Positions 11,726-63,841 of a DNA stretch of 64,000 nt are shown one piece after another. The DNA is from a virus. The notes under the pieces are model-generated. The model saw nothing but the letters and a program-made list of their open reading frames with translations. It was not told the DNA's origin and made no database searches. The first letter of the stretch is position 1; each line of letters opens with the position of its first letter. The translations under genes were made by a program, and so were the position numbers. Location: the IMG/VR virus record IMGVR_UViG_3300021364_003460, positions 1-64,000 of that record. One strand, given 5' to 3'.

Positions 11726-12292
11726 ATGACTTACTTAATTTTGAAAACAAGTTACAGTCATATACTATATAAAGATGGACAATTACTTACAAGCATAGAT
11801 AACAATTCAATAGATAAAAAATACAGTATTATACCTTCTCCTACTAAAACAATGAGAGAAGCATCTTACCTATTAGACACTATAAATGTTAGTGATATTG
11901 AAGATAACTTTTTAAAGTTTATAGGTAAGTTTAATAATCCTAAACTGGAATACTGTTGGCAAGTTGACCGCTACCTTATTAATCTACTAGAAGAAAACAA
12001 CACAGTTACTATTAAAGCCTTTACTAAAGTAGAAGATGTTTGGTTAAGTAGTAATATTAATAATGCTAACTTCTTAGCTGATATCTGGGATAGTTTGTGG
12101 AGTAGTAAAATACTAGCAGCTTGCTGGTACGCTCAACAAAGTTTAGAAAATGGTAGCTGTTATTGGGACTTAACTGACACCACTATTACAGTAAATAAAT
12201 TATTTAAAGAATTATATGAGTATACTGATTGGGTAGTAAAGTTAAATAAAGATAGACAGAGCGGGGAGTGGAAGATTATACATGATAATTAA
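11726..12292 (+). CDS. Hypothetical protein
   Basis: A 188-residue protein with a good ribosome site (AAAGGA before ATG). Beta-rich N-terminus, Trp-rich C-terminus. No family is recognised. Overlaps the next gene by 11 bases. Confidence 0.65.
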   Translation: MTYLILKTSYSHILYKDGQLLTSIDNNSIDKKYSIIPSPTKTMREASYLLDTINVSDIEDNFLKFIGKFNNPKLEYCWQVDRYLINLLEENNTVTIKAFTKVEDVWLSSNINNANFLADIWDSLWSSKILAACWYAQQSLENGSCYWDLTDTTITVNKLFKELYEYTDWVVKLNKDRQSGEWKIIHDN

Positions 12293-12638
12293 AAATGAAA
12301 TAGAACTGTTTACTAGAGTAGAAGTTATCAATCAATACAACTCTTTAGTAAATCAACTTAATAACTTAGGTTTAAATTTAGATAAGTTAGCTATTGCAGA
12401 AACCTACAGTGATGACTTGTTCGCAGATTATGATTGGGTAGATTCCTACAATCAAGAGTATACTTATGAATGCTTATCTGAGCTTAAAATTGCTTTCAAA
12501 AAGAATACAGGAGCAGAACTTGAGTTGGTCTATTTAGAGATTAGTGAGCTTACTGTATGGAGAGTAAGTAACTTTTATATAGAGGTCATCAATCCTGAAG
12601 TATTTGGTATTTGTAAACAGGATTTATTACATGAATAA
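12282..12638 (+). CDS. Hypothetical protein
   Basis: A 118-residue protein, overlapping at both ends with neighbours, probably in one operon with the barstar-like gene. Unassigned. Confidence 0.6.
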   Translation: MIIKNEIELFTRVEVINQYNSLVNQLNNLGLNLDKLAIAETYSDDLFADYDWVDSYNQEYTYECLSELKIAFKKNTGAELELVYLEISELTVWRVSNFYIEVINPEVFGICKQDLLHE

Positions 12639-12960
12639 ACTTACAGTAGTACATTTAGATGGTACTAAGATTACTGACAAACAAAGCTTTCTAAAAGAGA
12701 TAGCTGAAGCATTAGAGTTTCCTGAGGGGTTTGGTCACAATTGGGACGCTTTAGAAGATTGCTTAAGATATTTGAAAAAAAAGTATTTTATAGTGTGGAC
12801 TAACTATGTTTACTTAGATTCAATAGCTAAAGGAGTAGAACTACTAGAAGAGTATGGTTATATAATTTCAACTGGAGAATCTCAAGTTAACTTAAGGAAT
12901 AACTATTTCTTTGAGGCTATACTAGATATGCTTGAAGTGCCTCACACTTGGTATGATTAA
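12631..12960 (+). CDS. Barstar family protein (ribonuclease inhibitor-like)
   Basis: A 109-residue protein. HLDGTKITDKQSFLKEIAE followed by FPEGFGHNWDALEDCLR is the barstar signature (F-P-x-x-F/Y-G-x-N-W-D-A-L-x-D-C-L), with the acidic helix used to plug a barnase-type active site. Start at ATG 12631 overlaps the previous stop; an upstream ATG (12604) would add nine unrelated residues. No barnase-type partner is seen nearby, so the target may be a host RNase toxin. That is inference. Confidence 0.85.
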   Translation: MNKLTVVHLDGTKITDKQSFLKEIAEALEFPEGFGHNWDALEDCLRYLKKKYFIVWTNYVYLDSIAKGVELLEEYGYIISTGESQVNLRNNYFFEAILDMLEVPHTWYD

Positions 12961-40828: not shown

Positions 40829-43800
40829 ATGCAGACATTACAAGTAAATACTTTTAAAGCTTACTTTGACTTGCTCTCTCCTAAGTATGTAGATTGGGAA
40901 TTTTATAGTAAATATTTAGACAAAGAGCCTCCTTTTGGTGAATTAGGAGTAATAGTATTTTTAAGAACTTACAGTAGATTTATTGAACAATTAGGTAGAA
41001 GAGAATACTGGAGAGAAGTATGTTTAAGAGTCGTTGAGTACAGCCTGTCTTTAGATAAAGTAACTCCAGTTGAATTAAAAAAAGAAGAAGCTAAAAAGTT
41101 ATTTGATATGATGTTTAATCTTAGAGGATTTCCTGCTGGAAGGACTCTATGGATTGGCAACACTAAGATTACTGAAACAAATGGAACAGCAAATTTTAAC
41201 TGTTCTGCTGCTACTACAGATAGTATTTCTAAGTTTGCAGAATGTTTTTATATGTTACTAGTAGGTGCAGGATATGGCTTTAGTGTAGAAGACAAATACA
41301 TTAGTAACCTGCCCACTTTTTATCCTGGTAAAACTTTAGTCAATAAAGAGTATAACTACAACAAATACTTAAAAGTAGATGATACAGAGATTGAGTTTTA
41401 TAAAGATAATAAATTTCTGTCTTCAGTGGTTTATACAGAAAAGTCTTTATGTATAGAAGAAGATAATAAGTATTTATCTGTACCAGAAGACTGCAATAAA
41501 GTTAATATTCTGGTAGGAGACAGCCGTGTTGGTTGGGTTAACACTCTAAGACTTCTACTTACTTTACATACTTATTCAAATATAAAAGTTGTTGAAGTAG
41601 ATTATGATTATGTTAGACCAGAAGGTGCAATCTTAAAAACATTTGGAGGCAGGTCTAGTGGTCACACTGCTCTAGAGACTTTACTAAATAGAGTTGTAGA
41701 AATTATAAATGAGTTATCTAAACCTGGAAAATTAAGTAGCGTTCAATGTTTAGATATTAAAAATTCTATTGGTATAGCTGTAGTAGTTGGTGGAGTACGT
41801 AGGTCAAGTGAGTTAGTATTAGGAGATTTATTTGACACTAATTTTATTAATTCTAAAAAAGACTTGTGGAGTGATGAAAGTTTAGCTAATAAAAGAGCTA
41901 CTAGAGTTATGAGTAATAACTCAGTAACCTTATATGAAAACCCTGGTTTAGAATACTTTAAACAATTAATGGAAAGTGTTAGAACATCAGGTGAACCAGG
42001 AGTATATAGCATAGGTAACGCTCAAAAAAGAGCAGCTAACAGAAAACTTACCAACCCTTGCTTTACTGGTAGTATGAAACTTCTTACTAGTGAAGGTTAT
42101 GTTGAATTTAAAGAACTAGAAGATAAAGAAGTAGAAGTAATTAATAAAGAAGGTAATATTACTAAAAGTAAAGTTTGGTCTTCTGGAATTAAAGAGTGCA
42201 TTGAATTAAGACTTTCTAATAAAGAGACTCTACAATGCACTCCTGATCATATATGGTTAACAAATGAAGGAGAAATACAAGCTAAAGATTTAAAGAATAA
42301 ACAATTAGTACCTTTTCTAAAAGAACCTGATTTAGATATTAATTATACAAGATATGGTTTTATTCAGGGAGATGGCACTTTAAATAGACTTACTTCAGTT
42401 ATACACAAAGGGTTGGAAGTAAACATAGGATATAAAGATGGAGACATTTATTCTTTATTTGAAGGTTTAAATTATACAAATAAGAGTTATAGAGTTATTT
42501 ATTTAAATGACTCTAAAGACCTAGAGGTGATTAAATCTTTAGGATATCAAGCAGTTAAATTACCTCAAAGAACTTTACCAGATAAATATCCATCTTTCTC
42601 TTTCAAAGAGAAAGCTTCCTTTTTAAAAGGTTGCTATTCAGCAAATGGTTCTGTTCTTAGCTGTGGTAGAGTCACTTATAAAGCAACTTGTAAAGAATTA
42701 TTAGAACAAATTCAAGAATCTTTATATTTAGACTTTGGAATTGAATCTTATATAACTACTAATAAGTCTAAAGAAGTGCAGTTTAGTAATGGTGTTTATA
42801 CCTGTAGAGAAAGTTATGATTTAAATGTAAATAAGTTTACTGATAAAGTTAACTTCTTTAATGAAATTGGTTTTGTTCAAAGATATAAAGTTGAATTATT
42901 AGCTAAACACTTATTAAAATCTGCACCTTATATAACTTCTATTAAAAATATTGGTGAACATAAAGTTTATGATTTTACTGAACCTGAAACTCATTGGGGT
43001 GTAGTAAATCGCTTTATAGCTCATAATTGCGGTGAAATCCTCTTAGACGACAGAGGAGTGTGCAACTTAACTGAAGCTAATGTATTAGCTCATGTTAAAG
43101 AAGATAACACTTTTGATTGGGAAGTTTGGAAAGATACTATTACTTGGGTGACTAGAATGGGATCTAGAATAACCTTAGTTGATATGTGGCATCCTAAATG
43201 GCAAGAAACTCAGCAAAGAGATAGGTTACTTGGAGTATCAATGACAGGTATAGTAGAAGCTTTTGATGCTCTTAATTGGTCAGAAGAAGACATTACTTAC
43301 TTTTATAAAAAGACTCAAAGTATTGTTGATCTTGTTGCAGATAACTATCATAACTATCTAGGTATTCCAAAAAGTTTACTTAAAACTACTATCAAACCCA
43401 GTGGTTCATTGTCGCAATTGCCTACAGTTTCATCTGGTATACATAGACCTTATGCGCCTTATTACTTAAGAAGAATTAGAGTTAGTAAAACAGATCCTTT
43501 AGCTAAAACACTATATGATTTAGGATTAATTCCTGTTCCAGAAAACAGTCAAGGTGATGACTTGTTTGGAGAATACTGTAACACTTGGGTATTTACTTTC
43601 CCAGTTAAAACTAAAGCTAAATTAAATTCAATTGATGAACCAGCTTTAGTTCAGTTAGAAAGATATAAACAAGTAATGCAGCATTATGTTCAACACAACT
43701 GTTCTATTACTGTATCTGTTGCTGAACATGAATGGGAAGAAGTAGCTCAATGGTTGTATGAAAATTATGATTACTATATTGGAATAGCATTCTTGCCTAG

Positions 43801-44008
43801 ATTTGATCCATTAGATAAAGATGGGAAGGTTCTATATCCTAACTTACCTTATCAAACTTCAAATGAAAAAGAATACTTAGAACTTAAAGATAATACTCCC
43901 AATTTAACAGAAGGAGAATTAATTGAATTGTTAACTAAGTATGAAAAACAATATGAAGAATTAGATTTAGGTTCTGATTGTGCCTCTGGAGCTTGCCCCG
44001 TGCGCTGA
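40829..44008 (+). CDS. nrdJ: Class II (B12-dependent) ribonucleotide reductase with intein
   Basis: A 1059-codon gene encoding a 736-residue reductase plus a 323-residue intein. Extein motifs: LRGFPAGRTLW, NFNCSAATTD (first catalytic Cys), GGVRRSSELVLGD, TNP/CGEILL split by the intein, GVCNLTEANV, TTIKPSGSLSQLPTVSSG, and a C-terminal SDCASGACPVR Cys pair for re-reduction. Length and single-chain layout fit monomeric adenosylcobalamin-dependent NTP reductases. It supplies dNTPs aerobically or anaerobically. It follows the PduO-like gene and a promoter-like box. Confidence 0.92.
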   Translation: MQTLQVNTFKAYFDLLSPKYVDWEFYSKYLDKEPPFGELGVIVFLRTYSRFIEQLGRREYWREVCLRVVEYSLSLDKVTPVELKKEEAKKLFDMMFNLRGFPAGRTLWIGNTKITETNGTANFNCSAATTDSISKFAECFYMLLVGAGYGFSVEDKYISNLPTFYPGKTLVNKEYNYNKYLKVDDTEIEFYKDNKFLSSVVYTEKSLCIEEDNKYLSVPEDCNKVNILVGDSRVGWVNTLRLLLTLHTYSNIKVVEVDYDYVRPEGAILKTFGGRSSGHTALETLLNRVVEIINELSKPGKLSSVQCLDIKNSIGIAVVVGGVRRSSELVLGDLFDTNFINSKKDLWSDESLANKRATRVMSNNSVTLYENPGLEYFKQLMESVRTSGEPGVYSIGNAQKRAANRKLTNPCFTGSMKLLTSEGYVEFKELEDKEVEVINKEGNITKSKVWSSGIKECIELRLSNKETLQCTPDHIWLTNEGEIQAKDLKNKQLVPFLKEPDLDINYTRYGFIQGDGTLNRLTSVIHKGLEVNIGYKDGDIYSLFEGLNYTNKSYRVIYLNDSKDLEVIKSLGYQAVKLPQRTLPDKYPSFSFKEKASFLKGCYSANGSVLSCGRVTYKATCKELLEQIQESLYLDFGIESYITTNKSKEVQFSNGVYTCRESYDLNVNKFTDKVNFFNEIGFVQRYKVELLAKHLLKSAPYITSIKNIGEHKVYDFTEPETHWGVVNRFIAHNCGEILLDDRGVCNLTEANVLAHVKEDNTFDWEVWKDTITWVTRMGSRITLVDMWHPKWQETQQRDRLLGVSMTGIVEAFDALNWSEEDITYFYKKTQSIVDLVADNYHNYLGIPKSLLKTTIKPSGSLSQLPTVSSGIHRPYAPYYLRRIRVSKTDPLAKTLYDLGLIPVPENSQGDDLFGEYCNTWVFTFPVKTKAKLNSIDEPALVQLERYKQVMQHYVQHNCSITVSVAEHEWEEVAQWLYENYDYYIGIAFLPRFDPLDKDGKVLYPNLPYQTSNEKEYLELKDNTPNLTEGELIELLTKYEKQYEELDLGSDCASGACPVR
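42059..43027 (+). other. Intein in nrdJ (codons 411-733)
   Basis: Inserted between Pro and Cys of the active-site NPCGE motif. Block A begins CFTGSMKLLTSEGYVEF; block B is TPDHIWLTNEG; the end is GVVNRFIAHN before Cys734 (43028-43030). All splice residues (Cys1, the block B His, His-Asn and Cys+1) are present. Between the blocks, YGFIQGDGT and LKGCYSANGSV resemble the two LAGLIDADG motifs. The second has Asn for the usual acidic residue, so homing activity may be reduced. Confidence 0.9.
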
Positions 44009-47390: not shown

Positions 47391-48647
47391 ATGGCATTTT
47401 TAAGTATTGAAAGTAGCAATCCAAAGTTCAGTTACATTATTAATAAGAATCCTAGTAACCCTGCTATAGCTAAACCTATTAGGCAAGGTACTGCTATTGG
47501 GTGGTTTGCTAATGAACAGAAGTATTGTGTTAGGTTTGTAGACCCTCCTCAAAAGATGTCTTACAACAAAGCTGAGTATGAATACCTTGATGTGACAGCT
47601 TTGAGTTCACCAGCAGCTTACAGTAATCTTATTAGAGATTTCTTTAATGGATTGTTAAAAAAAGAAAGTGAGTTTGATGTAATTGAGCATGACTTTCATA
47701 AAATAGAATTAGGATTTATTAAATGTAGTAAAAGAAACCTTGAACACTTTACTAAGTTCTTTCCACAAGTTACCTATATAGAACTAGCTAAAAATACTTA
47801 TCAAGTAACCTTTTTTGATAAAAAATTAAGTTCTCTTAGAAAGCTACTTCATTTAACTAATCTATTCTGTATCTTCATGATGGTAGCTGATGATGACTTC
47901 TATGTTGACATTAATGAAGATGTTATCAAAAAGTATCTAGTTTCATTACAAGTTATAAAAGTTCCATACTATATAGCTAACCTATTCAAAATACAGTTTC
48001 TCAAAACTAAAGCTCTGTTTACTAAGTTTGCACCTACCTTACAAGAAGCCTGCACTGAAGAAGTTACCTTTGAGTTTGGTACTGTATTAGATGCTAGAAA
48101 GAGGTGGATTGAAAGTAACCTTTCTTTTAAGAACAATATAGTAGACATTGGTGCAGGAGAAGACTTTAACTACGCTTACCTGTCTAGAAACATTAAAGGC
48201 ATCTATTACCCAGTAGATAGAGATGAAGAAGCTAGAAAGTCTATTACTAGAAAGATTGAGTATAAGAAGTTTGATAAGGTAGCTGAACCTTTAGCTGACT
48301 GGAATGAAATTAAGGAACTATTAGATAGTGACACTGAAGTTATTTTAACTGAGATACTTGAACATAATAGTTTGAAGGAAGCTAGAGCTTTGTTAACAGA
48401 GGTCTTAAGTCATCCACAAGTTAAACGTTTACTTATAACCTTACCTTGGATGCCTTTCAACAAATACTATTTATTAGATACAGAGTTTAGGCATGATGAC
48501 CACAAATGGGAAGCTGATAATGAAGTATTAACTAAACTTTATTATGTTGTCAGATCAGAAAAGAAATATAAAGTTGCAGAAGCTTTTATAGGGGATTTAA
48601 TTTATGGAATATCTCCAACAGTAGGAATAATTATTGAGAAGGTGTAA
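47391..48647 (+). CDS. hen1: Hen1-type RNA 3'-terminal 2'-O-methyltransferase
   Basis: A 418-residue protein. N-terminal 1-210 is the region that in bacterial Hen1 contacts and activates the Pnkp ligase. The C-terminal methyltransferase has DIGAGEDFN (SAM loop, 252-260), TEILEH (Glu321, Glu324, His325) and EFRHDDHKWE (His368, His371), the Mn2+-binding set unique to Hen1. The enzyme methylates the 2'-OH of an RNA 3' end so that the repaired junction resists a second cut. ATG 47391 is used; the TTG at 47352 adds residues over the palindrome. Pnkp follows after 4 bases. Confidence 0.88.
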   Translation: MAFLSIESSNPKFSYIINKNPSNPAIAKPIRQGTAIGWFANEQKYCVRFVDPPQKMSYNKAEYEYLDVTALSSPAAYSNLIRDFFNGLLKKESEFDVIEHDFHKIELGFIKCSKRNLEHFTKFFPQVTYIELAKNTYQVTFFDKKLSSLRKLLHLTNLFCIFMMVADDDFYVDINEDVIKKYLVSLQVIKVPYYIANLFKIQFLKTKALFTKFAPTLQEACTEEVTFEFGTVLDARKRWIESNLSFKNNIVDIGAGEDFNYAYLSRNIKGIYYPVDRDEEARKSITRKIEYKKFDKVAEPLADWNEIKELLDSDTEVILTEILEHNSLKEARALLTEVLSHPQVKRLLITLPWMPFNKYYLLDTEFRHDDHKWEADNEVLTKLYYVVRSEKKYKVAEAFIGDLIYGISPTVGIIIEKV

Positions 48648-48651
48648 TTAC

Positions 48652-51291
48652 ATGACAATTAATATTCAAATACCCATGCACACTGTAGTCACTATGGTGG
48701 CTCCTTCATGCTCAGGTAAATCTCTACTAGTAGAAACATTAGTAAATCAATTAGAAAGAACTTATCAATTAGGTTTAAGTAAACTCAACTTCCATGTAAT
48801 CTCTTCAGATGATATACGTAGAGAGCTTATTGGGGAAGACTTACATAAACATGACAATGAAATGCTTTATGCTTCTGGGGCTGCATTTGATTTACTATTT
48901 TGTAAGTTGAGAAACCTACTTCAGTTTCCTCTTAGTTTAAAGAATGCAGTAGTGTTTGTAGATACTACTGGTTTAAGTAAAGAGTTTAGAGACCAGGTAA
49001 ATAAAGTAGCTGAGAGATATGGTTATAATACAGCAGCCATTGTATTAGACTACAAAGAATATCAAGACTACTTTAAGTTAGCTGAAAATGATGAGAGAGT
49101 AGATAAGTCAGTTGTTAGCAATCATGTAAAAAGACTCAGAACTAAAACTCTACCTCAAATGAGGAGGAAAGACTACTCAGCAGGTATCTTTAAAATTAAA
49201 CAGCTAGATTACCTTTGGCACAACGTTGAAATTCAGTTAACTAATGCAAATGAATATATCAACTGTAGGCTACCTATTAAAACTGCTGAAGGGGAAAGGA
49301 TAGAGTATACTTGTTTAGGGGATAGTCATGGTTGTTATGATGAGGTAATACAAGTATTAACTAAAGCTGGGTTTACTATTGAAGAGGGGTTAATTAAAAA
49401 TCCTGGCAACAAAAGAATTGTTTGTTTAGATGACTACATTGATAAAGGAAGTAAGCAAAAAGAGCTTATTCAATTCTTCTATAACAACCAAGATTACATT
49501 TACCATGTTTTAGCTAATCATGAGGATTTTGTTGTAAGGTACTTTACTGGAGATATCAAACCAGATAAAGACTCTTTACAATACTTTGATTCTATTAGCT
49601 GGCTTAAAGATACTCCTGAGTTGGAAGAATTAAAATGGCTACATTCTCAAGCTAAACCCTTCTTAATTCACCCTGACTTTATCTGTACTCACTCTCCTTG
49701 TAAACTAAAACACTTAGGTAAACTAGATAAGGAATCTAAGAGAGCTCAACTTAAGCATAGACTACCTTCTATCTATGGTAAAGACTTTGATACTGAGGAA
49801 GAATACAAAAATGTACTAGAAACTAATTTAAATTGGTTAAAGGAGCAAGCTGTAGCTAACTTTCCTTTTATCTTCTCTGGTCATCTTTCATTCAGTAATG
49901 TTGTCAGACTAGGTAGCCAAGTAATGTTAGATACTGGAGCAGTCTATGGGAATAAACTTACCGCTTGTACTGTAAAAGGAAGAAAGCTAGACTTTACTCA
50001 AGTTCAAGCTAAAGAAGCATACTACCCTATTAAGTATCTAACAACTATCTTTGATACTAAAGATAAAGTTAACTTAAATAGTCTAGACTCTAGGGAACAG
50101 AGAAGAATTAAGAGAGCTTTAGGAGAGAAACCAATCAACTGGCTATCAGGAACTATGTCACCTAGTGCTAGTAATGATTCTCAGTTAGAACCTATTGAAA
50201 CAGCATTAGAATACTATAAATCTAAAGGTGTTACTGACCTAGTAATGCAATGTAAAGAAATGGGCAGTAATGCTTCCTTCTATTGGCTGCCTAATCCAGA
50301 AGACTGCTACATGGTTAGTAGAAATGGCTATCTTATTAATCAAGTAGACATTAAACCTATAGTAGATAAGTTCCACTCTCTAATTGCAGAAAGGTTTCCT
50401 GATGCTACTCAAGTAATAGTTTTTGGAGAATTGAAACCTTGGTCTGCTTTAGGTAAAGGTTTAATTGACCACCACTTCATCCCTATCTACTCAGGGATGA
50501 AAACTGAGTTAGAGTTCTCTAAAACTAATGGTTTTGATACAGCTTTCTCTAGTTTGTTATCTCAAGCTAAAGAAGAGTTTGCTCATGACAGAGGTAAGTT
50601 ATCTAAAGCTGAGTTAAGGGCTAAGTATGGAGATGCTAAAGTAGAGTGGTATAACAGTGTACTACAAGCTGCTAAGTATGTTAATCCTGTAGATATTGAT
50701 TTAGCTGAGGTAGAAGCCTACAAGGAAGAGTTAGATGGGTATACTCAAGATAGTGAGTTAGATTTCCAACCTTTCCAAGTATTAAAGATTGAAAGAGGTG
50801 ATAAAGTAGAAGTGTTACCTTTTGATAACTATGAAGGGTTTAAACTATTTAACTCTAATCAAATTATAAAATTAGATTTAAATTCTAAGGAAGGTTATGA
50901 TACTGAAGTTTTGTATGCTAGATATGTGTACAAAAACTGGGTATCTGCTCCACAAGACTTCTTTGGTTATACTAAGTTAGAAGGTGTAGTTATTAAACCT
51001 TTAGACCCTAAGCTGACTAATGTAGCTCCTTATATTAAAGTAAGAAATCCTCAGTACCTTAAGTTAGTGTATGGGCCAACTTACAATTTAGAACCTACCT
51101 ATAGTAAACTAGTTAAATCTAAAAGGATTAGTAGAAAGATTAAGTCTTCCATTAATGAATGGCAGCTAGGTTTAGAAATGTTAGGTATTCATTCTAGTCA
51201 GATGACATTAGATAACTCTAAAGCAGTAGACTTAATGATTAAGTTTATTGCAGAAGAAAGGAAAGTGGAAGTGTTAGATCCAAGGTTGTAA
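48652..51291 (+). CDS. pnkp: Three-domain RNA repair enzyme Pnkp (kinase-phosphatase-ligase)
   Basis: An 879-residue protein, matching bacterial Pnkp length and order. Kinase about 10-170: APSCSGKS P-loop (Lys23) and SSDDIRREL. Metallophosphatase about 215-440: CLGDSHG, CLDDYIDKG, ANHED, SGHLS. Adenylyltransferase (ligase) about 495-879: VMQCKEMGSNAS with nucleophile Lys535 in K-x-x-G-S. It heals 5'-OH and 2',3'-cyclic phosphate ends, and ligates with Hen1. Both genes are adjacent, as in bacterial RNA repair operons. In a phage it probably counters host anticodon nucleases (inference). Walker A differs from GxxGxGK at its first Gly. Confidence 0.92.
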   Translation: MTINIQIPMHTVVTMVAPSCSGKSLLVETLVNQLERTYQLGLSKLNFHVISSDDIRRELIGEDLHKHDNEMLYASGAAFDLLFCKLRNLLQFPLSLKNAVVFVDTTGLSKEFRDQVNKVAERYGYNTAAIVLDYKEYQDYFKLAENDERVDKSVVSNHVKRLRTKTLPQMRRKDYSAGIFKIKQLDYLWHNVEIQLTNANEYINCRLPIKTAEGERIEYTCLGDSHGCYDEVIQVLTKAGFTIEEGLIKNPGNKRIVCLDDYIDKGSKQKELIQFFYNNQDYIYHVLANHEDFVVRYFTGDIKPDKDSLQYFDSISWLKDTPELEELKWLHSQAKPFLIHPDFICTHSPCKLKHLGKLDKESKRAQLKHRLPSIYGKDFDTEEEYKNVLETNLNWLKEQAVANFPFIFSGHLSFSNVVRLGSQVMLDTGAVYGNKLTACTVKGRKLDFTQVQAKEAYYPIKYLTTIFDTKDKVNLNSLDSREQRRIKRALGEKPINWLSGTMSPSASNDSQLEPIETALEYYKSKGVTDLVMQCKEMGSNASFYWLPNPEDCYMVSRNGYLINQVDIKPIVDKFHSLIAERFPDATQVIVFGELKPWSALGKGLIDHHFIPIYSGMKTELEFSKTNGFDTAFSSLLSQAKEEFAHDRGKLSKAELRAKYGDAKVEWYNSVLQAAKYVNPVDIDLAEVEAYKEELDGYTQDSELDFQPFQVLKIERGDKVEVLPFDNYEGFKLFNSNQIIKLDLNSKEGYDTEVLYARYVYKNWVSAPQDFFGYTKLEGVVIKPLDPKLTNVAPYIKVRNPQYLKLVYGPTYNLEPTYSKLVKSKRISRKIKSSINEWQLGLEMLGIHSSQMTLDNSKAVDLMIKFIAEERKVEVLDPRL

Positions 51292-51294
51292 ATT

Positions 51295-51486
51295 ATGGAA
51301 ACTTATTATGTCATGTACTTTTATGAAAATGAAGAAGTGCATTCTGTAATAGAATTACAGGCTTCTTATTTACACTCTGATTTGCTAAGTAAAATAGAAG
51401 CAAATGCACCAATGGAAGATTACTATTATCAGGTAGTCACAAAAAAAGTATATGAAGACTATAATTCTAGCAAACCAGAAACCTAA
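51295..51486 (+). CDS. Hypothetical protein
   Basis: A 63-residue protein 3 bases after pnkp, Tyr/Glu-rich. Possibly in the same operon. Unassigned. Confidence 0.5.
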   Translation: METYYVMYFYENEEVHSVIELQASYLHSDLLSKIEANAPMEDYYYQVVTKKVYEDYNSSKPET

Positions 51487-59149: not shown

Positions 59150-59437
59150 ATGATTATGACTGGCATTAGAGAAAAACTCTACTCTGAAATCTTTGTTGAG
59201 TTACCTATATTAGCTAAAGAACAAAAGTGGGCTATAACTGCTGACCACTGTATAGGAAGAATAATTTATGACTCTGTAATGAGTTGTAAGTGGAGTAAGG
59301 TAGTTAAGTCACCTTTCTATAAGAATGCTGAGTTGAGTAAAGTTGAGGAAGCTCTATTAGTGTGCGATCGCCTAAAGGTGGAAGGTAAAATATTAGCTGA
59401 CAAGTTGAATGAAGAGAGTTTGAGATATAGAAAATGA
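59150..59437 (+). CDS. Hypothetical protein
   Basis: A 95-residue helical protein from ATG 59150 (ATG 59156 possible). It overlaps the ArgRS-like gene by ATGA and contains a HIP1-type octamer in its coding sequence. Unassigned. Confidence 0.6.
   Translation: MIMTGIREKLYSEIFVELPILAKEQKWAITADHCIGRIIYDSVMSCKWSKVVKSPFYKNAELSKVEEALLVCDRLKVEGKILADKLNEESLRYRK
59364..59371. repeat. Single HIP1-type octamer GCGATCGC
   Basis: Exact GCGATCGC. In cyanobacterial chromosomes this octamer is very abundant. Only this copy was noticed in 64 kb of AT-rich sequence, so it is weak host evidence. Confidence 0.5.
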
Positions 59438-60531
59438 TAGATATTTACAGCTTAAATGAGATACCTAAAAAGTTTAATAAACAAGGACTCTGTTATTTTG
59501 GTAAGCTGACTAAAGAAGAGTTGCCTTTAGATTGTGAGCTAGAGTATGTTCCAGGCTATACCAATATATACCTAAACTCATTTGAAGAAGACTTTGTGCA
59601 GTTTGAGTACATGGATGGATTTAGTCCTAACCTTAATAAGAAGCTACACTTAGGTCATCTTAGTAACTTTATCTTTGCTAAAACTTTTCAATCACTGGGA
59701 GTTAGTAAACAAACTATTGCTATCTATGGAGATACCTTAAAAGGAACTGACTACACCAATAAAAATCAGATAATGTTTGACTACAAAGTAGATAAAGAAT
59801 ACTTTGCTAGTCAGATGACACTTAGTGATGACAGTATATTAAGTAATGGTAAGGGTAAGTATGAAGGTGCTAAAGTCTGGCAAGATAATGTAATGATTAA
59901 GTCCAATGGAGGTACTACATACTTCTATCAAGATGTAGCTCTAAGACAGCATCTAAAGTTACCAACTCTATACTTAACTGGACAAGAACAAGTAAATCAC
60001 TTTGCTGAACTTAAAAAGTATGATGGCAATGTTACTCATATAGGATTAGGTTTAGTCAACCTTAATGGCAGCAAGATGAGTTCTAGAGAAGGTAATGTTG
60101 TCTTTATGGAAGAAGTTGTAAGTAAACTAAATGAAGGTTTTAATAACTTAAAGTTAACTTACAATGTGCTGGCTGGTAGTCTTATTAAAAGTAATCCCAC
60201 TACTAATAAGAATATAAACATGACTGACTTAATGGATGTAAAGAAATCATTAGGTCTGTATGTGAGCTATTCACTGGCTAGATTAGATAAGCTACCTATT
60301 GAGTTTGAAAAGGTAGAAATTAGCCCTTTAGTTAAGTATCTGTATGCTAAGTCTAAAATTAAGTTGAATCCTTCTATATTGTTCAATAAGTTAGTAGAGG
60401 TGTGTCAAGCTTTCAATGGAGACTATGAAAGTAAAAGTAGTCAGGAGAATGTTGAGTTGTATTCTCAATATAAGGTAGATGCGGAGTATATGTTTGATAA
60501 GTTAGGGTTGTATAAGGTTGAGAAGGTGTAG
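59434..60531 (+). CDS. argS: Reduced arginyl-tRNA synthetase-like protein
   Basis: A 365-residue class I synthetase core, against about 550 or more for full ArgRS. FSPNLNKKLHLGHLSNF is the PN-x-x-K-x-L-H-x-G-H signature; GGTTYFYQDVALR follows. TGQEQVNHFAEL and GSKMSSREGNVVF carry the KMSKS-type loop in its ArgRS form. The N-terminal tRNA D-loop domain is missing and the anticodon-binding helical part is short. It may charge tRNA inefficiently or modify or bind another substrate. A reduced CysRS lies 2 kb downstream. Confidence 0.75.
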   Translation: MIDIYSLNEIPKKFNKQGLCYFGKLTKEELPLDCELEYVPGYTNIYLNSFEEDFVQFEYMDGFSPNLNKKLHLGHLSNFIFAKTFQSLGVSKQTIAIYGDTLKGTDYTNKNQIMFDYKVDKEYFASQMTLSDDSILSNGKGKYEGAKVWQDNVMIKSNGGTTYFYQDVALRQHLKLPTLYLTGQEQVNHFAELKKYDGNVTHIGLGLVNLNGSKMSSREGNVVFMEEVVSKLNEGFNNLKLTYNVLAGSLIKSNPTTNKNINMTDLMDVKKSLGLYVSYSLARLDKLPIEFEKVEISPLVKYLYAKSKIKLNPSILFNKLVEVCQAFNGDYESKSSQENVELYSQYKVDAEYMFDKLGLYKVEKV

Positions 60532-60758: not shown

Positions 60759-62234
60759 CTAAGTTATAAGACCTCCCTCTAAGTCTGTAGTTATCCTAAG
60801 TAAGGAAGCTTGCGCCCTAACAGCCTCCTTCATTTTACTCTCTAAAGACTTTACTAAATTACCTTTATTGTAGTGTACTGTAAATCCATCATGCTGAAAG
60901 AGAGTAATAGACATATATTTACTATTCTCTTTAGCTATATCAAAGACTGGCTTAAGTAATACCATCTCCATTAGTTGAGCCTCCTGAGCTAACAAAGACT
61001 TAACACAGTCATGTCTTTCTTTATCAGTATTACCTTCTACTAAAAGTTCTCTACCATCATGCCAGTCTAAAGTTAACTTACCCTCTTCTAAGACTTTAGT
61101 TATCTTAGCTTCTCTGGCTTTATAAAGAGCTGCCATAATGGGACGGGCTAACACATCAGCACCCTTCTTGGCTATCTTTAGTTTCTTAAATCCTTTAGTC
61201 AGTCTAGCTAATAAACATGACTTCTTCATACCATAAATAAGAGAATAAAGACTTTCTTTAAGTAAACCTTTGAGAGCATCAAACCAACCAGGGTTATTTA
61301 ATTTATTGTAAGTATAGTTAATTCCTAAATGAGTAAAGAGGGAAGTCCAGATATGGTTGCCTGATTGTAAGAATTCTTGTACTTCTGTTATGTTCCATAG
61401 TTTAGCTACTATAGCCAACTGACTACTAACTAAATCATACTCATACCAACCCTTACAGATGGCTTTTCTTAGCTTTCTACAAAGAAGTAGTATACTTTCC
61501 CCATGAGGAAATATCCTTACTGTTCTACCAGCACTGCTAGGTTTGTAGTAAGGCTTAGGATTCTCATATATAGATAGAAGTATCTTAGTTTCTATTTCTC
61601 TTAAAGTAGCGTCCTTAGTAGGCTTGAGTTTAGGGTTAGTTTCATTAGACTCTAATCTAGCCAGCACACTAGACACATGGTCAAGGTTTTCTTTAACTTT
61701 GCTAGTAAAAAGATTAGAAGGTAAATTATTTAAGTATTCTAATAAAGGTAGTGCCTCTACAGAAGCATTATCATAGAATCTCTTAACTTCCTCTTCTAAC
61801 TCCTTTCTAATTTCACCAGGAGTATTCTTATTAGCTTTCTTTAAAGTAATAAAGTTGATCATGTTTGTACTGTTACCTATAGGAAAATAACCTAACTCTT
61901 TTTGAATATAATACTGTACTTCTAAAGCAAAGTAAGGAATAGCTGACCTAGCTTTACCTTCTTCATAACTGTACTCTTTAATAGCTAACTTTAAACCTGT
62001 TTCTTCTTGAAATTTAGTTAGATAGTTGCCTGCATTGTAGCGGTGATTTTTAAGTTTCTTATAGCAACCTTCACAACTAGCTAAAGTATGTCTATCTAAA
62101 ACAGTATAGTTTTCTTTGTTCTTACTAAAGATAAGTTTGAGAACTAGCTTTCTGTAACCAGCATTATCTTTAAGAACTGGGTAATGTTCAAGAAGAGAGT
62201 TAGTTAACTCTTGAGATATTAATCTTTTTATCAT
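60759..62234 (-). CDS. Compact family A DNA polymerase-like protein
   Basis: A 491-residue protein. SSAGRTVRIFP resembles the PolA T-G-R-x-S-S...P-N segment. Then YEYDLVSSQLAIVAKL is motif A (Asp267), KESLYSLIYGM motif B (Lys326 and Tyr-Gly) and FQHDGFTVHY motif C (His448-Asp449). No 3'-5' exonuclease is seen. The N-terminal 230 residues, with a C-x-x-C (Cys54, Cys57), are unassigned. Order and spacing fit a minimal family A palm/fingers enzyme. Whether it makes DNA, RNA or primers is unknown. A paralog with an in-frame TGA lies at 24149-25648. Confidence 0.7.
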   Translation of the reverse strand: MIKRLISQELTNSLLEHYPVLKDNAGYRKLVLKLIFSKNKENYTVLDRHTLASCEGCYKKLKNHRYNAGNYLTKFQEETGLKLAIKEYSYEEGKARSAIPYFALEVQYYIQKELGYFPIGNSTNMINFITLKKANKNTPGEIRKELEEEVKRFYDNASVEALPLLEYLNNLPSNLFTSKVKENLDHVSSVLARLESNETNPKLKPTKDATLREIETKILLSIYENPKPYYKPSSAGRTVRIFPHGESILLLCRKLRKAICKGWYEYDLVSSQLAIVAKLWNITEVQEFLQSGNHIWTSLFTHLGINYTYNKLNNPGWFDALKGLLKESLYSLIYGMKKSCLLARLTKGFKKLKIAKKGADVLARPIMAALYKAREAKITKVLEEGKLTLDWHDGRELLVEGNTDKERHDCVKSLLAQEAQLMEMVLLKPVFDIAKENSKYMSITLFQHDGFTVHYNKGNLVKSLESKMKEAVRAQASLLRITTDLEGGLIT

Positions 62235-62513: not shown

Positions 62514-62744
62514 ATGACAACTTACATTGAAGTAGAATCAACCTTAGACTTGCATAATAAAGTAGATGAACTAATAGGAGACTTACCTATTGCTTGGTCT
62601 ACTGCTAACAGATTACAGTATCCCCATGCAGAAGTAACTTATGAAACTTCTTATATTAATGGACTTAAAAAAGCTAAAGTTAGATTAGTTAAAGATGTAT
62701 ATGATGAATCTAAAGTAGAGGAGTATGAGGTAACTTTAAAATGA
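62514..62744 (+). CDS. Hypothetical protein
   Basis: A 76-residue protein 2 bases after the RHH gene and overlapping cysS by ATGA. Beta-rich second half. Unassigned. Confidence 0.55.
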   Translation: MTTYIEVESTLDLHNKVDELIGDLPIAWSTANRLQYPHAEVTYETSYINGLKKAKVRLVKDVYDESKVEEYEVTLK

Positions 62745-63841
62745 TTAACCTTTACCTTAAAGACAGTTTAACCAACCAACTAAAACTGTTTACTCCTATT
62801 CAACCTAACCATGTAAACATATATGCTTGTGGAATAACCCCTTATGATTTCTCTCATATAGGTCATGCTAGATCAGCTATTACATGGGATATTTTAATCA
62901 GGTATTTAAAGTACCTTGGTTATTCAGTCAACTACATTAACAACGTAACTGACATAGATGACAAGATTATTGAGAAAGCAAAAGTTAATAATGCTCCTGC
63001 TTTAGAAGTTAGTGATTACTACTTTAAAGAATATCAGAAAGAGTTAGCAGCTTTAAATGTGATACCTGCTGATAACTACCCTAAAGTTAGTGAAAATATA
63101 CCTCATATTATTAAGTTTATTCAAGAGTTAATTGCTAAAGAGGCAGCTTATGTGGCAGGAGATGGAGTTTACTTTAACCTCAACTCAGCAGCTAACTACG
63201 GTAAATTATCTAACAGAGATAGTCAAAGTTGCAGCTATCAAGACTTTGCTTTATGGAAATTAACTAAAGATAATGGCTGGGATAGTCTTTGGGGTTATGG
63301 TAGACCCGGCTGGCATATTGAGTGTTCTACATTTATAAAAATTTATATAGGAGATACAGTAGATATACATTGTGGAGGTAGTGATTTAGTATTTCCACAT
63401 CATGAGAATGAAATAGCACAGTCAGAAACCTTAACTGGTAAACCTTTAGCAAACTATTGGTTACATAATGGTATGGTTAAAATTGATGGTAAAAAGATGT
63501 CTAAGTCATTAGGTAATACTATTACTATCAAAGATGTGTTAGCTAAATATCATCCTCACACTCTTAGAATGTTATTCCTACAAACTGGGTATCACAAACC
63601 AGTTAACATTACAGAAGAGTCTTTAAAGGCTGCTGAAAATGCTTATCTTAAATTAGAGAAATCTGCTAACTTATCTCATACTTATATACTATCTGAAGAA
63701 AATCCTTACCTTAAAAAGTTTGAAGAATATATGTCAGACGACTTAAATACAGCTAAGGTATCTGCACTAATGTTTAAGTTAGCTAAAGAAAAAAAGTATT
63801 CTATTTTAAAACAAATAATGAATTTAGTTGGATTACTATGA
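62741..63841 (+). CDS. cysS: Reduced cysteinyl-tRNA synthetase
   Basis: A 366-residue protein, against about 460 for bacterial CysRS. IYACGITPYDFSHIGHARSA has the first zinc Cys and HIGH; GWHIECSTF, then FPHHENEIAQSE, complete the zinc ligands (Cys, His, Glu). KKMSKSLGN is the KMSKS loop. It ends after a short DALR-type helical part (YMSDDLNTAKVS), without the C-terminal anticodon-recognition domain. The catalytic core looks intact, so Cys activation is likely. tRNA specificity may differ. Confidence 0.88.
   Translation: MINLYLKDSLTNQLKLFTPIQPNHVNIYACGITPYDFSHIGHARSAITWDILIRYLKYLGYSVNYINNVTDIDDKIIEKAKVNNAPALEVSDYYFKEYQKELAALNVIPADNYPKVSENIPHIIKFIQELIAKEAAYVAGDGVYFNLNSAANYGKLSNRDSQSCSYQDFALWKLTKDNGWDSLWGYGRPGWHIECSTFIKIYIGDTVDIHCGGSDLVFPHHENEIAQSETLTGKPLANYWLHNGMVKIDGKKMSKSLGNTITIKDVLAKYHPHTLRMLFLQTGYHKPVNITEESLKAAENAYLKLEKSANLSHTYILSEENPYLKKFEEYMSDDLNTAKVSALMFKLAKEKKYSILKQIMNLVGLL

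Follow-up and report, generated by a model that had tools for sequence, protein, structure and literature searches.

A putative Hen1-coupled RNA repair operon of hybrid architecture in a predicted LMM01-like cyanophage

The gene pair

The 64,000-nucleotide (nt) stretch analyzed here, referred to as the window, comprises positions 1 to 64,000 of the IMG/VR virus record IMGVR_UViG_3300021364_003460, which is 190,865 bp long in its entirety and has a guanine-plus-cytosine content of 31.4%. At 47391-51291 lie two adjacent open reading frames (ORFs) on the plus strand, encoding a Hen1 protein and a kinase-phosphatase-ligase fusion. The first, hen1 (47391-48647; ATG at 47391, stop codon at 48645-48647), encodes a predicted RNA 2'-O-methyltransferase of 418 residues. 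The second, pnkp-rnl (48652-51291; ATG at 48652, stop codon at 51289-51291), follows after a spacer of 4 nt (48648-48651) and encodes 879 residues, in which the Pfam families PF13671 (AAA_33), PF00149 (Metallophos) and PF16542 (PNKP_ligase) are matched in that order. A preliminary description made from the sequence had reported the spacing, the order of kinase, phosphatase and ligase domains, the EILEH and FRHDDH motifs of Hen1 and the ligase lysine K535 in KEMGS, and all of these are borne out. Profile searches match both the Hen1 and the Pnkp ligase domains far beyond chance, and the gene pair is confirmed as real, with both ORFs at full length and their C-termini conserved. No third operon member was found, and the ORFs flanking the pair are not shared with other carriers of the system. 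An ORF of 63 codons at 51295 is a possible orphan beside the operon. A promoter scan returned matches no more frequent than chance, and a terminator scan was likewise uninformative.

Domains and affinities of the two proteins

Hen1 combines a PF22032 (Hen1_N) N-terminal domain (residues 4-219, 47400-48047; E=3e-50) with a C-terminal methyltransferase domain, as in the Capnocytophaga type. The protein carries the S-adenosylmethionine (SAM)-binding motif DIGAGE (residues 252-257, 48144-48161) and the two metal/catalytic motifs of Hen1, EILEH (residues 321-325, with E321, E324 and H325; 48351-48365) and FRHDDH (residues 366-371, with H368, D370 and H371; 48486-48503). Residue conservation was measured against 95 Hen1 homologues (17 viral and 78 bacterial) and, for the second protein, against 83 other fusions (14 viral and 69 bacterial). 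D252, G254, G256, the EILEH residues and H371 are invariant among the Hen1 homologues, and H368 is retained in 94 of the 95. By sequence, Hen1 matches a PDB structure from Capnocytophaga alone, the closest chain being 4xrp_C over the full length (phmmer; E=9e-25, residues 3-416). The AlphaFold2 model (mean predicted local distance difference test, pLDDT, 87.9) has 4xrp_F as its top Foldseek match at a template modeling (TM) score of 0.85, with the Anabaena and Clostridium Hen1 structures far behind. In Capnocytophaga, the N-terminal domain of Hen1 contacts, and presumably activates, the ligase (PMC4411300).

The fusion (AlphaFold2 pLDDT 83) opens with a P-loop polynucleotide 5'-kinase domain (48652-49251; AAA_33, E=5e-9) that contains the Walker A motif APSCSGKS, D53 and R113, and whose fold resembles the kinase of Clostridium thermocellum Pnkp (4jt2/4gp6; Foldseek target-normalized TM score, TMt, 0.82-0.84). 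It is followed by a calcineurin-like metallophosphoesterase domain, the predicted 3'-phosphatase (49279-50046; PF00149, E=2e-8), in which D224, H226, D261, N289, H290, H347, H411 and D427 are invariant across the aligned fusions and which resembles the C. thermocellum Pnkp phosphatase 4j6o (48.6 bits, TMt 0.72). The 3'-phosphatase of the haloacid dehalogenase (HAD) type, PF25109, is missing from the fusion, and PF00149 stands in its place. The third domain is an Rnl-type RNA ligase (nucleotidyltransferase; 50080-51288; PNKP_ligase, E=2e-20) with K535 as the adenylation lysine in KEMGS, ligase motif I (codon at 50254-50256; K in 82 of the 83 homologous fusions). Residues 493-879 match the Rnl chain 4xru_B with E=2e-36 and 128.6 bits, as against 35.1 bits (E=4e-8) for the C. 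thermocellum Pnkp ligase and 34.5 bits for Anabaena Pnkp-C; the closest fold is 4xrp_E (TMt 0.85), and Rnl-type matches span TMt 0.84-0.85.

No catalytic position of the phage proteins deviates in more than one of the other fusions or Hen1 proteins. A lysine, K265, replaces the arginine of the phosphatase DRG motif family-wide. All known catalytic residues are present in both phage proteins, neither of the two expected domains is missing, and judged by these residues the operon is apparently intact.

On sequence and model comparisons, the 879-residue protein and its Hen1 partner are a hybrid of two published Hen1 repair lineages, because Hen1 and the ligase fall into the Capnocytophaga Pnkp1-Rnl-Hen1 class, and the kinase and metallophosphatase into that of the classical Pnkp. 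With the Capnocytophaga gingivalis complex (PDB 4xrp/4xru; Wang, Selvadurai and Huang 2015) the phage pair shares the full-length Hen1 family and the type of ligase, but that complex consists of three separate proteins, whereas kinase, phosphatase and ligase form a single chain here, and its Pnkp1 has a T4-like HAD phosphatase (PMC4411300) instead of a calcineurin-like one. With the classical Pnkp-Hen1 of C. thermocellum and Anabaena variabilis (TIGR04074/TIGR04075; PDB 4drf, 3ty8, 4j6o), the pair shares the one-chain domain order, Hen1 as operon partner and the nearest kinase and phosphatase folds, but the ligase and the Hen1 N-terminal domain belong to the other class. The locus had been described as a bacterial-type operon of Hen1 and three-domain Pnkp in a phage, which stands, and as a member of the classical Pnkp/Hen1 family, which does not: the NCBIfam equivalog models TIGR04074 and TIGR04075 score 25 and 154 bits against cut-offs of 340 and 750, and the classical Hen1_L N-terminal domain PF12623 has no match in the phage record, although it was detected in a Deinobacterium positive control. 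The relatives in Bacilli likewise fall below both cut-offs. The Pnkp and Rnl1 of phage T4 offer a kinase, phosphatase and ligase for the repair of cut host tRNA, as proposed here, but operate without Hen1, with a HAD phosphatase and a separate Rnl1-type ligase, and the mended tRNA can be cut again; the pair described here has neither a HAD Pnkp nor a separate Rnl1, and it includes a methyltransferase.

Distribution of the operon

Scans of viral contigs with a single Hen1 or Pnkp sequence as query gave zero matches, which reflects a limit of sensitivity, since alignment-based scans recovered 7 and 9 loci. Alignment-based scans identified 14 further viral fusions of kinase, metallophosphatase and Rnl, 12 of which share their locus with Hen1. 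Dozens of Bacilli, including Paenibacillus, Brevibacillus, Cohnella, Bacillus and Listeria, carry the hybrid two-gene operon, and every recovered Bacilli locus has Hen1 next to the fusion or to a split version of it. The hybrid operons of Bacilli and of twelve uncultivated viral loci agree with the phage pair in gene content, gene order and domain architecture, show a 4-nt gap or an overlap in most loci, and have all catalytic residues in common with it, K265 included. They differ in showing only 26-38% identity to the phage proteins, and in that the Bacilli copies are chromosomal. That hen1 and the fusion are kept together suggests that the two proteins work together. In Bacteroidota, hen1, rnl and a HAD-type pnkp1 are three genes. 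They lie together in eight loci of Flavobacterium and other Bacteroidota, unlike in C. gingivalis, where hen1 was reported to be far from rnl-pnkp1 (PMC4411300). The PF22032 family is patchy, being found in 2 of 300 sampled genomes of one phylum.

A Hen1/PNKP pair in this phage is not a first, since Hen1 and PNKP were noted in the 2018 genome paper of the jumbo phage XacN1 (PMC5852040), and four other sequenced phages have such genes too. Xanthomonas phage XacN1, Stenotrophomonas phages CM1 and RAS14 and Vibrio phages RYC and vB_VpaM_sm033 all encode a PF22032-class Hen1, an Rnl ligase and a kinase. Unlike in the fusion described here, the ligase is a separate gene in all five; Hen1 is fused to kinase and HAD phosphatase in RYC and sm033, and the kinase stands alone in XacN1 and RAS14. 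A putative Pnkp1-Rnl-Hen1 set has also been reported in Borg elements (PMC11208441), and a survey of jumbo phages treats RNA ligases and kinases, with Hen1 not in its main text (PMC7824862). Both XacN1 (positions 12013-12792 of locus L009) and the present phage (window 52011-52793) have a PhoH-like gene close to the Hen1 locus; it is the sole neighbor found in common, probably by coincidence, PhoH being common. Hen1 repair in phages is thus already known, and no description of the hybrid fusion or of its cyanophage setting was found in the literature searched. The hybrid may already be tabulated in the RNA repair survey of Burroughs and Aravind from 2016.

The phage and its RNA-related genes

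Gene kinship identifies the virus as a cyanophage of the Microcystis LMM01 kind, given the affinities of its portal protein and ribonucleotide reductase. The portal matches Microcystis LMM01-group phages and a Microcoleus phage alone (38%), and the reductase (40829-44008, plus strand, 1059 residues) is closest to the intein-containing enzyme of Nodularia cyanophages (51%), its length being consistent with an intein. Hen1 was not found in the portal-related records (37-52%), several of which are fragments, or in LMM01-group isolates. The operon therefore looks like accessory cargo. In both trees long branches lead to the phage, and neither tree points to a donor lineage; a megablast search with 24 kb of the sequence returned no closely related phage.

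No tRNA gene was found in the whole 190,865-bp record by either ARAGORN or the Rfam tRNA model, which rules out phage-encoded tRNAs as the substrate. The proposal that the phage makes its own tRNAs resistant to cutting is thus withdrawn; what the operon acts on must be RNA of the host, most probably its tRNA. Carriers of the system do not usually lack tRNA genes: the Rfam tRNA model finds 10-60 in most of the other viral records. The record encodes two further stand-alone ATP-dependent RNA ligases, one of the Rnl5/DRB0094 family (record positions 95878-96918, plus strand) and a compact PF09414 protein of 203 residues (183147-183758, plus strand), making three in one phage; RtcB was not found in the record. 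A cysteinyl-tRNA synthetase (CysRS; window 62741-63841, plus strand) scores 420 bits with TIGR00435, over the cut-off, and has the HIGH and KMSKS motifs, but is truncated, with ~100 C-terminal residues missing.

Near it, a protein of 365 residues (59434-60531, plus strand) shows class-I synthetase-like motifs (HLGH, KMSSR) and a weak Pfam match to arginyl-tRNA synthetase (E=4.5e-5), and is possibly a second, degenerate gene of the aminoacyl-tRNA synthetase kind. An ORF of 491 codons at 60759-62234 (minus strand) has no Pfam match, and by eye contains motifs resembling those of family-A/single-subunit polymerases (YDLVSSQ, SLIYGM, HDGF). DNA polymerase A appears to be split into two plus-strand ORFs at record positions 68119-69582 (exonuclease and N-terminal part) and 70448-71461 (palm), with an ORF on the minus strand (69500-70381) between the halves, possibly a mobile-element insertion.

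Proposed function

The combined data suggest a model in which the phage operon repairs and protects host tRNA. A ribotoxin or anticodon nuclease would cut the tRNA and leave a 2',3'-cyclic phosphate (or 3'-phosphate) and a 5'-OH end; the metallophosphatase domain would open the cyclic end and strip the 3'-phosphate, and the kinase domain would phosphorylate the 5'-OH. The N-terminal domain of Hen1 would dock on the ligase domain and switch it on, and Hen1 would 2'-O-methylate the new 3'-terminal ribose before the ligase domain, via K535, seals the break. The junction would then lack the 2'-OH that such nucleases require, and the mended tRNA would resist renewed cutting. The protected pool would be that of the host, since the phage has no tRNA genes, and translation would be kept going for the phage. 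In keeping with these steps, the Capnocytophaga complex mends ribotoxin-cut tRNA only when all its proteins are present together, and repair with SAM yields tRNA resistant to colicin D (PMC4411300). The four activities, the dependence on Hen1 and the precedence of methylation over ligation are strongly inferred from characterized homologues. The counter-defence purpose and tRNA as the main target are drawn from context, namely the precedent of T4 Pnk/Rnl1 acting against PrrC (PMC12409363, PMC10264068), the absence of tRNA genes from the phage and the distribution of the operon as an accessory element. That portal relatives and LMM01-group isolates lack Hen1 agrees with how accessory genes related to defence are expected to be distributed, and anticodon nucleases may reasonably be taken as the target. 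Altogether, we regard it as probable that the operon, accessory cargo of an LMM01-like cyanophage, is an intact repair-and-protect system directed against host systems that cut tRNA.

Several points weigh against this interpretation. The activities of the phage Hen1 and fusion are predicted from homologues, and the host is placed as a cyanobacterium by the kinship of phage genes alone. Three residues, A17, D260 and N540, are changed in this phage alone at positions otherwise invariant (83/83): A17 replaces the first glycine of the P-loop, D260 the glycine preceding the metal ligand D261, and N540 the arginine of KxMGSR. The first is permitted by the Walker A consensus, and the last resembles the Rnl2-type motif I, KxxGxN. 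D260, beside a metal ligand, could weaken the phosphatase, and is the one real doubt on activity.

Among other explanations, the operon might repair RNA and mainly address something other than damage by host immunity, offsetting collateral breakage of tRNA, rRNA or mRNA in infection by phage- or stress-induced RNases or competitors' toxins, as general maintenance. Wang et al. suggest a broad substrate range and generic repair, the in vivo substrates being unknown (PMC4411300); similar operons are chromosomal in Bacilli and, as three genes, in Bacteroidota, and phage counter-defence does not account for them in either group; and CysRS and the two other RNA ligases would make up a broad kit for translation and RNA maintenance. 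We nevertheless consider this unlikely, as the patchy accessory distribution among related phages fits conflict better than housekeeping, and protection by 2'-O-methylation pays only when the same site is cut repeatedly. Still less probable is a partial or decaying operon with at least one activity degenerate, such as the phosphatase through G260D, in which Hen1 and the ligase would, for example, seal only metal-dependent breaks (3'-OH/5'-P) and host enzymes would prepare the ends. The three unique substitutions and the long branches in both trees would fit such decay, but the metal ligands and every other catalytic residue are retained, both ORFs run to conserved C-termini, and there are precedents for the changes in the P-loop and in motif I. 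A classical Clostridium/Anabaena-type Pnkp-Hen1 captured from a cyanobacterial host, which the one-chain order, the shared operon and the kinase and phosphatase folds might suggest, can be dismissed as very improbable, being contradicted by the far stronger Capnocytophaga affinities of Hen1 and ligase, the TIGR04074/TIGR04075 scores and the absence of PF12623.

Within the favored repair-and-protect interpretation, the phage would protect the host tRNA pool instead of supplying tRNAs of its own. During infection it would give cut host tRNAs a 2'-O-methylation that makes them permanently resistant to cutting, and would outlast repeated cutting with a hybrid enzyme that joins both Hen1 lineages. 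This more specific proposal, to which we give an even chance, draws on the absence of tRNA genes from a phage that encodes a mini-CysRS and two RNA ligases besides its Hen1-coupled sealing operon.

Conclusions

If the model holds, the strategy of this phage would be stronger than that of T4, as the damage would be reversed and the site made immune as well, and an abortive-infection nuclease could not win by cutting again and again. Cleavage of tRNA is now viewed as a common anti-phage tactic (PrrC, RloC, PARIS, retrons, Cas13a, Cas12a3), and a methylating repair kit is therefore a directly testable counter. The RNAs on which bacterial Hen1 repair acts in vivo are unknown (PMC4411300), and phage infection would let such damage be triggered on demand. 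The hybrid architecture links two bacterial Hen1 systems hitherto split by phosphatase type, and shows the second Hen1 class to extend well beyond the 10 species from which it was known in 2015.

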